Of a stretch of DNA of 64,000 bases, positions 56,963 to 64,000 are shown one piece after another. This stretch comes from Siphonodentalium dalli (Eukaryota > Mollusca > Scaphopoda > Gadilida > Siphonodentaliidae), in assembly GCA_032622095.1 (NCBI GenBank), contig CP136063.1, forward strand, positions 218,319,982 to 218,383,981, given 5' to 3'. Below the pieces are notes generated by a model. That model made no database searches. It saw nothing but the letters and a program-made list of their open reading frames with translations, and was not told where the DNA came from. The stretch's first letter is position 1. Every line of letters begins with the position of its first letter. Made by a program: the position numbers and the translations under genes.

Positions 56963-58172
56963 CTAACAGGTTAGCCCGCCACTTGCGTGGTTGGTCAGAA
57001 ACATGACATTTAAAAAAAAAATTAATATTAATTAAATGTTTTTTAAATTTAATTTAGTTTTTTTTGAATTTTTTAATATTTATTTAATTTTTATTCTAAT
57101 TGACCTATTTATTTAATTTTTATTCTAATTGACCCGATGAAATCCCCCCTTCCCAGGAACGACAGACAACGCATTTTTTGTTTTGCTTTTTTTTTTAACC
57201 TGCCTTACCCGTCCTAATGTCACAATATTTCGAGCGATAACATTGCATTGCATTGAAAACAAACGCTTCCCGTCGTGAAATCTCTCTACGATAACATTGC
57301 ATTGAAAACAAACGCTTCACGTCGTGAAATCTCTCTGCATAATATTTCGAGTCTGTCGTACCCGTCCTAATGTCGTGAAATCTCTCTGCATTTCAATAAA
57401 CGCTTCCCGTCGTGAGATCTCTCTACGATAACATTGCATTGAAAACAAACGCTTCCCGTCGTGATATCTCTCTGCATAATATTTCGAGTCTGCCGTACCC
57501 GTCCTAATGTCGTGAAATCTCTCTGCATAATATTTCGAGCGATAACATTGCATTGAATTGAAAACAAACGCTTCCCGTCGTGAAATCTCTCTGCATAATA
57601 TTTCGAGTCTGCCGTACCCGTCCTAATGTCGTGAAATCTCTCTGCATTTCAATAAACGCTTCCCGTCGTGAGATCTCTCTACGATAACATTGCATTGAAA
57701 ACAAACGCTTCCCGTCGTGAAATCTCTCTGAATAATATTTCGAGTCTGCCGTACCCGTCCTAATGTCGTGAAATCTCTCTGCATAATATTTCGAGCGATA
57801 ACATTGCATTGAATTGAAAACAAACGCTTTCCGTCGTGAAATATCTCTGCATAATAATTCGAGCGACAGGCTACAATTCGTCATACATATAAGTAGATAG
57901 CGAAAACGACGCTCTTTATATAGACACTGCGGAAAACTAACGCTCTTTATGTATCAACGCTATTAACCCCGAAGTGCCGATTGCGGTGATTTTGATGATT
58001 GGGAAGGGAGAAACGGTGCTCTGAGCTTCTCCAAAACGCGACCACGGCGGAGTCCGTGGGATTTTACACTTATATACGAAATTTGAGCTCGATGGGTGCA
58101 GTCGTTTTCGATTCTATAAAGTACACACACACACATATATATATATATACGGAAGTCTCAAAATATATAGTA
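56963..58172 (-). mobile_element. Non-autonomous Helitron, family B, copy 1
   Basis: Minus strand 3' end: hairpin-capable CCACGCAAGTGGCGGG, CTAACCTG and TTAG (mutated CTAG) at 56966-56963. The 5' end at 58172 (TACTATATATTTTGAGAC) lacks TC and abuts the next element. Contains a modular minisatellite at 57230-57860 and a (TA)/(CA) tract near the 5' end. Confidence 0.8.
57230..57860 (-). repeat. Modular minisatellite in Helitron B copy 1
   Basis: Three modules are shuffled: CGTCGTGAAATCTCTCTGC (with ATAATATTTCGAG), TCTGCCGTACCCGTCCTAAT, and CGATAACATTGCATTGAAAA (with CAAACGCTTCC). A 256-bp higher-order unit occurs twice (offset 57367 to 57623). The long frames here are by-products. Confidence 0.85.
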
Positions 58173-58924
58173 CTAGAAGGTGACCCGACTTCGTCCGGGC
58201 TTTGACCTTGAATTGTCCATTTTGAAGGTCAAGGTCAAGTGGGGTCACGATTTGACCAGTCCAAAACACTGCCCGGACAAAAGTACCCCGACAAACGTGC
58301 CCGTCGAAATCCATCCGGTTTTACCCGATTTGACCTTGAATTGATCATTTTGAAGGTCAAGATCAGGTCGGGGTCACGATTTGACCCGTCCAAAACACTC
58401 AGTGGACAAAGGTAACCCTATGTATAAAATTTCGTCGAAATCCCATCAAAATTGGCGATTTGACCTTGAACTGACCCGATTTCAAGGTCAAGGTCACGTC
58501 GCACGGGCAAATGAATATGCTTATGAGACTCCCCATACGAAAGTGTCTCCACATACCTTGTTTCATCGAAATCCCGTGATATTCGGGCGTTTGACCTTGA
58601 AATGACCCGATGTCAAGGTCAAGGTCACATCGCACGGGCAAATTAATAGTTTTGTGCCACTCCCCGACCGAAGGTACCTCCACATACCAAGTTTCATCGA
58701 AATCCCGTGATATTCGGGCGTTTGACCATGAAATTACCCGATTTCAAGGTCAAGGTCACGTCGCACGGACAAATTAATAGGCCCATGCCACCCCCCGGCC
58801 GAAAATACCCCCACATACCAAGTTTTATCGAAATCGACTCGGCCGTTTTCGAGTTCATCGCGAACACACACACACAGACAGACACATCACACACACACAG
58901 ACAGATCTTCCAAAATATATAATA
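58173..58924 (-). mobile_element. Non-autonomous Helitron, family A, copy 4
   Basis: The 3' end CTAG at 58173-58176 is preceded (minus) by the hairpin GCCCGGACGAAGTCGGGTC. The 5' end at 58924 reads TATTATATATTTTGG, without TC. The body is of the 1-2579 type, rich in TCAAGGTCA. Confidence 0.85.
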
Positions 58925-59667
58925 CTAGAAGGTGACCCGACTTCGTCCGGGCTTTGACCTTGAATTGTCCATTTTGAAGGTCAAGGTCAAGTGGGGTAAC
59001 GATTTGACCAGTCCAAAACACTGCCCGGAAAAAAGTACCCGACAAACGTGCCCGTCGAAATCCATCCGGTTTTACCCGATTTGACCTCGAATTGATCATT
59101 TTGAAGGTCAAGGTGAGGTCGGCGTCACGATATGACCCGTCCAAAACACACAGTGGACAACAGTAACCCCATGTATCAAATTTCGTCGAAATCCCATCAA
59201 AATTGGCGATTTGACCTTGAATTGACCCGATTTCAAGGTCAAGGTCACGTCGCACGGGCAAATTAATATGCTTATGAGACTCCCCGTACGAATGTACCAC
59301 CACATACCAAGTTTCATCGAAATCCCGTGATATTCTGGCGTTTGACCTTGAAATGACCCGATTTCAAGGTCAAGGTCACGTCGCACGGACAAATGAATAT
59401 GCTTATGAGACTCCCCATACGAAGGTACCCCACATACCAAGTTTCATCGAAATCCCGTGATATTCGGGCGTTTGACCTTGAAATGACCAGATTTCAAGGT
59501 CAAGGTGACGTCGCACGGACAAATTAATATGCCTATGTTCGTCCCCGGCCGAAAATACCCCCACATACCAAGTTTCATCGAAATCGGGTGGGCCGTTTTC
59601 GAGTTCATCGCGAACACACAAACAGACAGACACACAGACACGCAGATCTTCCAAAATATATAATAGA
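58925..59667 (-). mobile_element. Non-autonomous Helitron, family A, copy 5
   Basis: CTAG at 58925-58928. TCTATTATATATTTTGG begins at 59667. 743 bp with the same block order as copy 4, and adjacent to it without host bases. Confidence 0.88.
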
Positions 59668-60607: not shown

Positions 60608-61525
60608 CTAGCAGGTTAGCCCGCCACTGGCGTGGTTGGTCAGAAACATGACATTTTTTTTAATTTTTTTAATATTAATTTAATGTTTTTTTTAATTTAA
60701 TTTAGGTTTTTTTTGAATTTTTTAATATTTATTTAATTTTTATTCTAATTGACCTATTTATTTAATTTTTATTCTAATTAACCCAATGAAATCCCCCCTT
60801 CCTAGGAATGACAGACAACGAATTCTTTGTTTTACTTTTTTTTTTAACCTGCCTGTACCCGTCCTAATGTCACAATATTTCGAGCGATAACATTGCATTG
60901 CATTGAAAACAAACGCTTCCCGTCGTGAAATCTCTCTACGATAACATTGCATTGAAAACAAACGCTTCCCGTCGTGAAATCTCTCTGCATAATATTTCGA
61001 GTCTGCCGTACCCGTCCTAATGTCGTGAAATCTCTCTGCATTTCAATAAACGCTTCCCGTCGTGAAATCTCTCTACGATAACATTGCATTGAAAACAAAC
61101 GCTTCCCGTCGTGAAATCTCTCTGCATAATATTTCGAGTCTGCCGTACCCGTCCTAATGTCGTGAAATCTCTCTGCATAATATTTCGAGCGATAACATTG
61201 CATTGAATTGAAAACAAACGTTTTCCGTCGTGAAATCTCTGTGCGTAATATTTCGAGCGACAGGCTACAATTCGTCATACAGATAAGTAGATAGCGAAAA
61301 CGACGCTCTTTATATATCAACGCTATTAACCCCGAAGTGCCGATTGCGGTGATTTTAATGATTGTGAAGGGAGAAACGGTGCTCTGAGGTTCTCCAAAAC
61401 GCGACCACGGCGGTGTCCGTGGGATTTTACACTTATATACGAAATTTGAGCTCGATGGGTGCAGTCGTTTTCGATTCTATAAAGTACACATATATATATA
61501 TACGGAAGTCTCAAAATATATAGTA
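60608..61525 (-). mobile_element. Non-autonomous Helitron, family B, copy 3
   Basis: CTAG at 60608-60611. 5' end TACTATATATTTTGAGAC at 61525. Internally the same modular minisatellite as copy 1 (about 60875-61260), but with a single higher-order unit instead of two. Otherwise closely similar to 56963-58172. Confidence 0.85.
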
Positions 61526-62575: not shown

Positions 62576-63175
62576 CTAGCAGGTTATCCCGCCACTGGCG
62601 GCATTCGTCCCATGGCTTTGATCGAAAAAGCAATTGCAACAGGTTCCGAGACACTTGTGCTGCATTTGTTCCAAATTTCGTCAGAAACATGACATTGTTT
62701 TTTTTATTTTGTTTTTATTTATTTTTGTTTTTTATTATGAATTTAATGTTTTTTAAATTTAATATATATTTTTTCTGAATTGTTTTTTTAATTTTAAATT
62801 TTTTTAATTTAATTTTTTGTTTCTGGCGGAAAAATTTACCCGTAGAAATCCCCCTTCCTATGAACGACAGACAACGCTCGAGCGATAACATTGAATAAAA
62901 CAAACGCTTCCCGTCGTGAAATGTCTCTGCATAATATTTCGAGCGACAGGCTACAGACTCCCGTCATACAGATAAGTAGATAGCGAAACGAAATTTACCC
63001 GTAGAAATCCCCCCTTCCTAGGAACCCGTAGAAATCCCCCTTCCTAGGAACGACAGACAACGCTCGAGCGATAACATTGCATTGAAAAGAAACGCTTCCC
63101 GTCGTGAAATTTCTCTGCATAATATTTCGAGCGACAGGCTACAGACTCCCGTCATACAGGTAAGTAGATAGCAGC
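62576..63175 (-). mobile_element. Non-autonomous Helitron, family B, copy 4 (5' end unclear)
   Basis: CTAG at 62576-62579, then GCAGGTTATCCCGCCACTGG (plus). T-rich stretch, then modules of the B minisatellite in short form. A block (CCCCTTCCTAGGAACG... to ...AAGTAGATAG) occurs twice, at about 62845-62990 and 63030-63175. No TC end identified. It merges into the 3' region of the LINE to its right. Confidence 0.7.
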
Positions 63176-63447
63176 AGGAACAGGATTTGCGTGCCCGCCC
63201 GAAGGGCGGCACGAGGACGGTGTGGGCTCACCCGGAGGTCGCCCTTACGCCCTGTCTTGGATCTTCTTGGTATTTTCTCTTAACAGTCAGGCCGCGGATC
63301 GGGTGGAGAAGTCTTGAGGTCGGGATCGTTCAGCGTCGCAGGTGTCTTGAATCTTGTCTTGTCTTGAATCTTCCATCTTTTCTTGGGCTTTGCCTTGTAC
63401 TTTGCCTTGATCTTTTTCTTTTTCTTTGCCTTGTCTCGGCATCTTGC
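63176..63447 (-). other. LINE 3' UTR, purine-rich part
   Basis: Minus strand is a run of AAG/CAAG-rich sequence (GGCAAAGAAAAAGAAAAAG, repeats of CAAGACAAG). A hairpin GTGCCCGCCC-GAA-GGGCGGCAC sits at 63191-63212. It is assigned to the LINE transcript because it follows the stop at 63742 on the same strand. The end of the element was not determined. Confidence 0.4.
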
Positions 63448-63737
63448 AAAATGCGGGACGATCCAGTGATGATGCTGGATTGCGCATTTTCAGTTGGTTG
63501 TCCAAGCCCGGGACCTTCCAATGGAGGCATTGGATTGCGGGCTGCTAAGAGAGTACGGGACGGTCCAGTGATTCCACTGGACTGCGTGCTCTCTTCTGTT
63601 ACTGCCCGGGACGGTCCAATACACCTTATTGGACTGCGGGTCTTTTCTGAAGTGGGATACGGGACGGTCTAGCATGGCCTGCTTGACTGCGTATCCTAAA
63701 ACCCGGGACGGTCCAATAAGCCTATTGAACTGCGGGT
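63448..63737 (-). repeat. Array of six covarying hairpins
   Basis: Units at 63448-63490, 63505-63543, 63549-63593, 63604-63641, 63655-63696 and 63701-63737. Each has an outer stem, a conserved GGACG (GGACC in unit 2) on the 5' side, an inner stem, a 4-9 nt loop, and TG opposite GGACG (plus-strand reading). Outer stems differ in sequence yet pair: AAAATGCG/CGCATTTT, AGCCCG/CGGGCT, GAGAGTACG/CGTGCTCTC (one G-T), CCCG/CGGG, GGATACG/CGTATCC, ACCCG/CGGGT. Inner stems also vary and pair. Confidence 0.85.
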
Positions 63738-63741
63738 CTTT

Positions 63742-64000
63742 TCAGCCACAGAGAAGTTGTTTGCGTTGTAAACACTCCCTCATGATGTCACTGCCGTCCA
63801 TTCTCGCCAGTGTACTTTCCGCCAGATCGCGCAGGCGCTCTCTGATGGGTTCCACGTCCGCGATGGTATGCAGATCTACAATACGGGTGTGATACGGTGC
63901 TTGCAGTGCCATTCTCAGGGCTTTGTTTTGGACCACCTGGAGCATTTGGATCGCTCGATATGATGCCAGGTTGGTGACCACCGATGCGTATTCCATGATA
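63742..64000 (-). pseudogene. LINE reverse transcriptase C-terminus, running off the window
   Basis: Minus strand, open from the window edge: EYASVVTNLASY, QNKALRMALQAPYHTRIVDL, EPIRERLRDLAESTLARM, then a stop at 63742. The pattern (N-K-A-L-R-x-x-L-x-A-P-Y-x-T-R, then I/L-R-E-R-L-R-D-L) is the thumb and C-terminal segment of Jockey-superclade RTs. No break is seen in these 85 codons, so an intact upstream ORF is possible outside the window. It precedes the hairpin array. Confidence 0.8.

Follow-up and report, generated by a model that had tools for sequence, protein, structure and literature searches.

A hairpin class repeated at both ends of a LINE in the scaphopod Siphonodentalium dalli: candidate binding sites of an element-encoded protein

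Background

The question raised by this locus is what purpose is served by a row of six similar hairpins, the stems of which change in sequence while remaining complementary, directly behind the last open reading frame (ORF) of a long interspersed nuclear element (LINE). The row lies at the end of a 64,000-nucleotide stretch of the genome of the scaphopod mollusc Siphonodentalium dalli (assembly GCA_032622095.1, contig CP136063.1, positions 218,319,982 to 218,383,981; hereafter the window). A first-pass annotation, made from the letters of the window, had read it as a multi-copy structure in the 3' untranslated region (3' UTR) that could be bound by the reverse transcriptase (RT) of the LINE or by another protein. 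In the following we argue that: i) the hairpin is very probably an RNA structure under selection, judging by the aligned units; ii) units of the same plan also occur within the coding sequence of ORF1; and iii) a separate 3' tail is probably the better candidate for priming. The overall explanation that we favour, at just short of an even chance, is that the hairpins at the two ends would be sites for the element's own protein, with the tail set apart for priming.

Organization of the LINE and its hairpin array

The genome that was searched comprises 2.2 Gb in 9 contigs; copies and loci are labelled L001 onward, L009 being the copy in the window. The 3' end of the LINE fills the last 830 bases of the window on the minus strand and contains, in the sense of the element: the end of ORF2, the array of six hairpins, A/G-rich sequence and the tail. 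The features are:

63742..64000, minus strand: 3' end of LINE ORF2, stop codon TGA at 63742-63744; 911 codons in full (APE endonuclease and RT), the reading frame extending past the window edge
63698..63740, minus strand: hairpin unit T1, 54.4 bits with model R1; the identical unit of L010 folds at -15.1 kcal/mol
63654..63697, minus strand: hairpin unit T2, 50.0 bits with R1
63601..63644, minus strand: hairpin unit T3, the weakest one, with a short outer stem, 45.2 bits with R1; z -1.2 for the L010 copy
63550..63592, minus strand: hairpin unit T4, 56.9 bits with R1
63503..63545, minus strand: hairpin unit T5, 50.4 bits with R1
63448..63490, minus strand: hairpin unit T6, 55.7 bits with R1
63275..63447, minus strand: A/G-rich 3' UTR between array and common tail, from the 8-copy alignment; the upper edge of the tail was mapped by hand and is approximate
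63173..63274, minus strand: common 3' tail of ~105 nt with its own hairpin (63190-63213); the LINE 3' end is the last base shared by the copies, near 63173; proposed recognition tail for RT in target-primed reverse transcription

The six units stand where they had been reported, with the complementary stem pairs that had been quoted: R1 places all six on the minus strand, between 63448 and 63740. Their scores of 45-57 bits in the LINE sense are high by construction, as R1 was built from units that included those of the window or near-identical copies; on the opposite strand three of the six match, at 12-16 bits, and the other three give no match up to E 10. The array adjoins the ORF2 stop closely, as had been noted, the spacing being slightly different: the TGA is 1 nt ahead of the first unit as modelled and 4 nt, not 5 bp, ahead of the edge drawn in the first-pass annotation (63737).

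ORF2 carries AP-like (apurinic/apyrimidinic) endonuclease and RT domains (Pfam PF14529, PF03372 and PF00078) and matches L1 ORF2p, R2 and TRAS1 in the PDB; this combination of domains makes the element an AP endonuclease (APE)-type LINE, which we take, from motifs, to be probably Jockey-like. The LINE family is young: over the 306-nt array, the best 40 of 184 candidate matches are 98-100% identical. The array is 3' UTR in 8/8 aligned copies, ends ~275 nt short of the LINE 3' end in these, and directly follows the end of ORF2 with its TGA in 32 listed rows, which represent 30 distinct places. The flanks of the eight copies differ, except within the pairs L001/L002 and L007/L008, which are LINE copies in direct tandem at distances of 4353 and 5280 bp, agree in their downstream flanks and are probably segmental duplicates. 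A histone H1-like frame, possibly of mollusc-like character, lies beside L004.

Genome-wide, the paired pattern GCANTCCA-N10-TGGANNGTCCC occurs 361 times and the reversed pattern 0 times; the loop-only pattern CGCA-N20-CGTCCCG occurs 427 times versus 50. For each pattern the listing covered the first 100 matches; by eye, ~81 of the 100 for the loop-only pattern are hairpin units. A very open pattern was uninformative (26,652 matches, control 26,986). Sixteen array loci from among the paired-pattern matches (L011-L026) were compared with ORF2, which adjoins the array in 10 of them, in pieces that are 62-100% identical. Older, decayed arrays have no adjoining ORF2 where examined, and were placed in the LINE lineage by the likeness of the array and, by eye, of the 3' UTR.

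Shape of the hairpin

In the LINE sense, each unit consists of: an outer stem of 4-8 bp, GCA, an inner stem of up to 7 bp, a small loop, the other strand of the inner stem, N-GUCC-C and the other strand of the outer stem. GCA opposite N-GUCC-C is the invariant part of this plan, and forms an asymmetric internal loop at 7-8 bp from the terminal loop. The loop had been described as CA opposite CGTCC; these letters are present and the description can be refined, in that a C-G pair closes across the loop in the minimum-free-energy structure (RNAfold) of most, not all, units of L010. The likely shape, as modelled, is a stem interrupted by a UCC bulge and an A.N mismatch.

On both strands, the folding of the 306-nt array surpasses that of 100/100 shuffles (z -5.6 on the minus and -7.2 on the plus strand), and the six units of L010, folded singly, reach z -1.2 to -5.1. 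Two weak spots were found: T3, the third from the stop, has few outer pairs and 25/200 shuffles fold equally well, and in T5 (63503-63545) the base of the inner stem is an A.A mismatch. Two unit types alternate, one with CCCG (T1, T3, T5) and the other with ACG or GCG (T2, T4, T6), an alternation which indicates that the array probably arose through duplication of a dimer of two hairpins. By eye, both types also alternate in the older and more decayed arrays of L019, L021 and L078-L080. Rfam gave 0 matches in positions 62800-64000 of the window (E up to 5) and in L010 2700-8420 (E up to 1). Kink-turns, iron-responsive elements and similar known motifs were considered and rejected, the G.A pairs or loop letters being absent.

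Pairing is kept while the sequence changes

The pairing was first evaluated on 12 units (6 + 3 + 3) that had been found by pairing. Within this set 89.4% of the 180 stem cells pair, as compared with 72.1% after shuffling (0/500 shuffles as high) and 25-39% when the arms are slid; the covariation score is 0.641 versus 0.306 (0/500 as high), and 12 pairs have changed on both sides versus 8.9 (12/500 as high). As the 12 units had been found by pairing, units were recruited anew with a sequence-only model (R2), which uses no pairing although its 12 training units were pairing-found; the pairing-based unit finder was kept out of the statistics. The search with R2 covered 61/80 loci (those left out being the near-identical L001-L008, and L015, L025, L031-L033 and L035-L040) and yielded 295 matches, of which 4 were removed for gaps or insertions; the 291 kept represent 198 distinct units, and 2 gapped ones among these were left out of the tree tests.

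The claim that pairing persists while the letters change was borne out by the recruited units: 2391 of their 2961 stem cells pair (80.7%), versus 24.7-38.9% when slid. In comparison with a tree-aware null (200 simulations), the 15 pairs average a covariation of 38.8 versus ~0 (sd 5, maximum 17.7), the leaf cells are paired for 81% versus 57 ± 5% (maximum 68.1%), and the pair-keeping double changes number 11.6 versus 4.1 ± 2.2 (maximum 12). Taken individually, at most one of the 15 pairs reaches significance, which is weak evidence at this level (see below). The wobbles on the 11 inner pairs, counted by hand in the 198-unit table (139 G.U versus 121 A.C), are too close to fix the strand; we prefer the sense strand, since the LINE mRNA has this polarity.

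We then compared the branches of a tree of the 43-nt units, in which internal branches were taken to approximate active lineages and terminal branches mostly single, ageing copies. Stem changes keep the pair in 43/88 cases on internal branches (49%) and in 29/52 (57%) on branches with ≥ 4 leaves, versus ~76/232 (33%) on terminal branches, where the simulations imply ~35%; Fisher's test on these counts, which are means of random parsimony resolutions that were rounded, gives p 0.009 for all internal branches and 0.002 for those with ≥ 4 leaves, values that are rough since branches are not independent. Changes in the 8 bulge and closing columns are distributed 12/76 over internal and terminal branches, and those in the 30 stem columns 144/283 (p 1e-4). 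Because the internal branches keep pairing more often and the terminal ones are near neutral, selection is favoured over a mutational artefact.

The same hairpins within ORF1

A scan of the element showed that the first ~110 codons of ORF1, ~4.5 kb upstream of the 3' array and outside the window, harbour further units built like the 3' hairpins, which are thus not confined to the 3' UTR. Three units were found in L009 and L010 and four in L028, L030, L061 and L063, the fourth sitting in a stretch that is missing from L009 and L010. Units at both ends of one element were read straight through in L009 and L010, and follow from position in L028, L029 and L030, where the 3' arrays lie ~4.5-4.9 kb off. 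The spacings of the ORF1 units are multiples of 3 in 15/21 loci with such units (exceptions: L063-L066, L072 and L075), whereas those of the 3' units (43, 53, 52, 47 and 55) show no regard to frame.

Paired changes occur within the coding sequence as well: in an outer stem, TGCG/CGCA of L009 corresponds to TACG/CGTA in L010, where the change in one arm replaces Ala by Thr and that in the other is synonymous; in the last ORF1 unit, an inner C-G pair of L009 is T-A in L027 and L071-L075, with a T.G state in L065; and an inner G-C is A-T in L064. Within the N-terminal part of ORF1 the nucleotide difference is 8.9-15.6% inside the units and 23.2-33.0% in the rest, in 6/6 pairs of four copies, and the fourfold-site difference, on just 15-20 sites per pair, is 10-24% versus 22-39%.

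Two further observations concern the 5' part of the element. The N-terminal part of ORF1 is ~61% identical between the two young lineages L010 and L029, and its last 303 amino acids are 95% identical between L009 and L010, a contrast that may reflect either fast evolution or swapped 5' ends. The start of ORF1 is preceded, by eye, by two tandem hairpins of another kind (CTAATT...AATTAG and variants) in six copies (L009, L010 and L027-L030).

A 3' tail shared with a second family

A 15-mer of the tail occurs 344 times genome-wide (control 0). Among the first 100 places listed, a strict array unit lies within 1.5 kb in 29 cases and is missing at this distance in 71, a count in which decayed arrays would escape; conversely, 29 of the 49 unit clusters listed have the exact tail within 1.5 kb. 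Sixteen tails were read, which were chosen for lacking a nearby strict unit and are not a random sample: 10 belong to a family of ~0.9 kb, 4 are the tail alone and 2 are LINE copies that break off below the array, and R1 finds no unit in these 16 loci (E up to 0.1). In the ten copies of the ~0.9 kb family (L082-L085, L088, L089, L092, L093, L095 and L096) the last 82-107 nt match the LINE tail at 90-95% identity, and a Lys-rich open frame (178-273 aa) is present in six; the family looks non-autonomous and is possibly a parasite of the LINE.

The tail hairpin (63190-63213) lies ~17 nt from the LINE 3' end. According to PMC5135761, stringent-type LINEs and their parasites have the RT-recognised 3' sequence in common. 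Since it is here the tail, and not the array, that is shared in this way, the tail with its own hairpin is probably the better priming candidate, which suggests that the array should serve another role. At ~2.02-2.06 kb in L006, an inverted part-copy of unit T2 stands, by eye, where the terminal tail hairpin should be, likely as the result of a template switch.

Proposed function and alternative explanations

In the mechanism that we propose, each hairpin would be a binding site of an element-encoded protein, in the first place ORF1p, which is favoured because three zinc-knuckle-like motifs, read by eye in ORF1, suit RNA binding. The many copies at both ends of the transcript would give avidity, the bound protein would coat the LINE RNA and mark its own message in cis for assembly of the ribonucleoprotein (RNP), and ORF2p would start target-primed reverse transcription from the separate common tail. 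Of the functions suggested in the first-pass annotation, a multi-copy protein-binding structure is the one that we consider best supported. Binding of the own protein for RNP assembly is put forward tentatively, at somewhat below an even chance; the more specific analogy, in which the LINE would tag its RNA with repeated hairpins at both ends, part of them in ORF1 coding sequence, and ORF1p would read many of them as in the packaging of RNA phages, is possible and on balance doubtful.

Various observations weigh against this interpretation. With regard to the statistics, further pair types are not raised in the 12-unit set (18 versus 22.8; 499/500 shuffles as high), single pairs are weak (1/15 significant with the R-scape-like null, E 0.035, and 0/15 with the column-rate null, best E 0.115), the column pairs with the second and third highest covariation (2-6 and 5-24) are not base pairs, and one-sided breaking changes exceed the null (195 versus 148) while restorations fall below it (47 versus 75). 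With regard to ORF1, the number of units varies by lineage (3 or 4), and the slot 51 nt past the first unit holds no recognisable unit; the protein gave no Pfam match above the cut-off (best zf-CCHC_6, E 0.019), and its fold prediction failed, reaching a pLDDT (predicted local distance difference test) of 35 only. The amino-acid difference is also lower inside the ORF1 units (18-24%) than elsewhere (38-47%), so that the comparison cannot separate RNA from protein constraint, and the latter could be a partial cause of the conservation. Finally, no ORF2 was found beside the array in 6/16 array loci (L013, L017, L019, L021, L024 and L025), nor upstream where read; we interpret these as putative 5'-truncated copies.

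The strongest rival, which we nevertheless consider rather unlikely, is that the hairpins bind a host protein for export, stability, translation or silencing escape of the LINE RNA. mRNA hairpins commonly serve as sites of host proteins, and the first unit abuts the ORF2 stop, both of which would suit this role. It is countered, weakly, by the array loci that were read, which carry the LINE ORF2 or resemble its array, and by the absence of a host-gene match among the matches listed, loci that were chosen by motif and 6/16 of which have no ORF2 alongside. Recognition of the array by the LINE RT to start target-primed reverse transcription, as was envisaged in the first-pass annotation and as occurs with the 3' stem-loops of UnaL2, ZfL2 and SART1, would agree with the 3' UTR position in all aligned copies and with the asymmetric internal loops that characterise RT-bound LINE stem-loops (PMC5135761). 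We regard it as unlikely, given the ~275 nt between array and 3' end, the 71 of the first 100 listed tails without a strict unit within 1.5 kb (decayed arrays being missed), the 16 tail loci in which R1 finds no unit, 10 of them copies of the second family, and the units in ORF1, which it leaves unexplained.

A further alternative is that the ORF1 units are a coding repeat of which the 3' array is a derelict copy with incidental hairpins, or that the role of the array is to promote readthrough at the ORF2 stop. The prevalence of ORF1 spacings that are multiples of 3 and the conserved amino acids inside the units speak for the former, and an 83-codon open frame after the stop in the window copy for the latter. 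The 3' units pair, however, while their spacings ignore the frame, and in at least one case, L009 versus L010, a compensated ORF1 change is not silent (Ala/Thr); the post-stop frame is 14-38 codons in 10 of the 32 listed rows and the TGA is kept in 32/32. Readthrough was rejected, as the post-stop frame is not kept across subfamilies, and the alternative as a whole is improbable. Least probable is that there is no RNA function and that tandem inverted repeats had their arms kept complementary by template switching in replication or reverse transcription. An apparent switch was indeed seen outside the array (the inverted T2 piece at the terminal hairpin of L006, by eye), but with copying of arms the asymmetric CA/GUCC loop, conserved better than any other part, would be lost, and mutation would act on both classes of branches, whereas the terminal ones lose pairing about neutrally and the internal ones keep it.

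Relation to known systems

How LINE proteins choose their own RNA (cis preference) is, to our knowledge, unsettled for many LINEs. It is already known that LINE hairpins can be read by RT. RNA recognition is called unclear in PMC5135761. The 3' stem-loops of UnaL2, ZfL2-1/2 and SART1 described there resemble the present units as 3' UTR hairpins with an asymmetric loop or bulge, and differ from them in copy number and position, the units occurring six plus three or four times, at distances from the 3' end of 275 nt and of at least ~4.5 kb. In stringent-type stem-loops, moreover, the bulge is 4-6 bp from the terminal loop, as compared with 7-8 bp in the window, and the structure is shared with a non-autonomous partner, which holds for the ~105-nt tail and not for the array (0 R1 matches in the 16 non-random tail loci). 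R2 has protein-binding RNA motifs at its 5' and 3' ends (PMC6895275), and structured RNA at both ends of the transcript is likewise found here; the two motifs of R2, however, give the protein different roles, whereas the present LINE repeats a single class of small hairpin at its two ends. R2 is also a site-specific element of the restriction-like endonuclease (RLE) type that inserts in 28S rDNA, while the window LINE is of the APE type with differing flanks.

RNA phages such as MS2 contain multi-copy packaging hairpins, bulged and in some cases located in coding sequence, that are read by the particle-forming protein. The many similar bulged hairpins, some of them coding, are alike in the LINE; the difference is that no capsid is known here and that binding is inferred, and no kinship is suggested. 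Neither Rfam nor the literature searched, with some terms that were too narrow, contained a precedent for one hairpin class that recurs at the two ends of a LINE, lies in part within coding sequence and is separate from the putative priming tail. If the phage-like reading is correct, the LINE would possess a dedicated multi-copy packaging signal apart from its priming tail, by which its RNA could be given preference over that of a parasite with a copy of the tail only. The three separable RNA parts (ORF1 hairpins, 3' UTR hairpins and distinct tail), together with a family that shares the tail and in which no unit was found, would make the recognition for packaging and that for priming separable.

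Elsewhere in the window, satellite-like arrays were observed of a CGCTTCCCGTCGTGAAATC repeat (57246-57863 and 60896-61178) and of a 131-bp repeat (163-2308, 58454-58835 and 59166-59585), the latter in both orientations.
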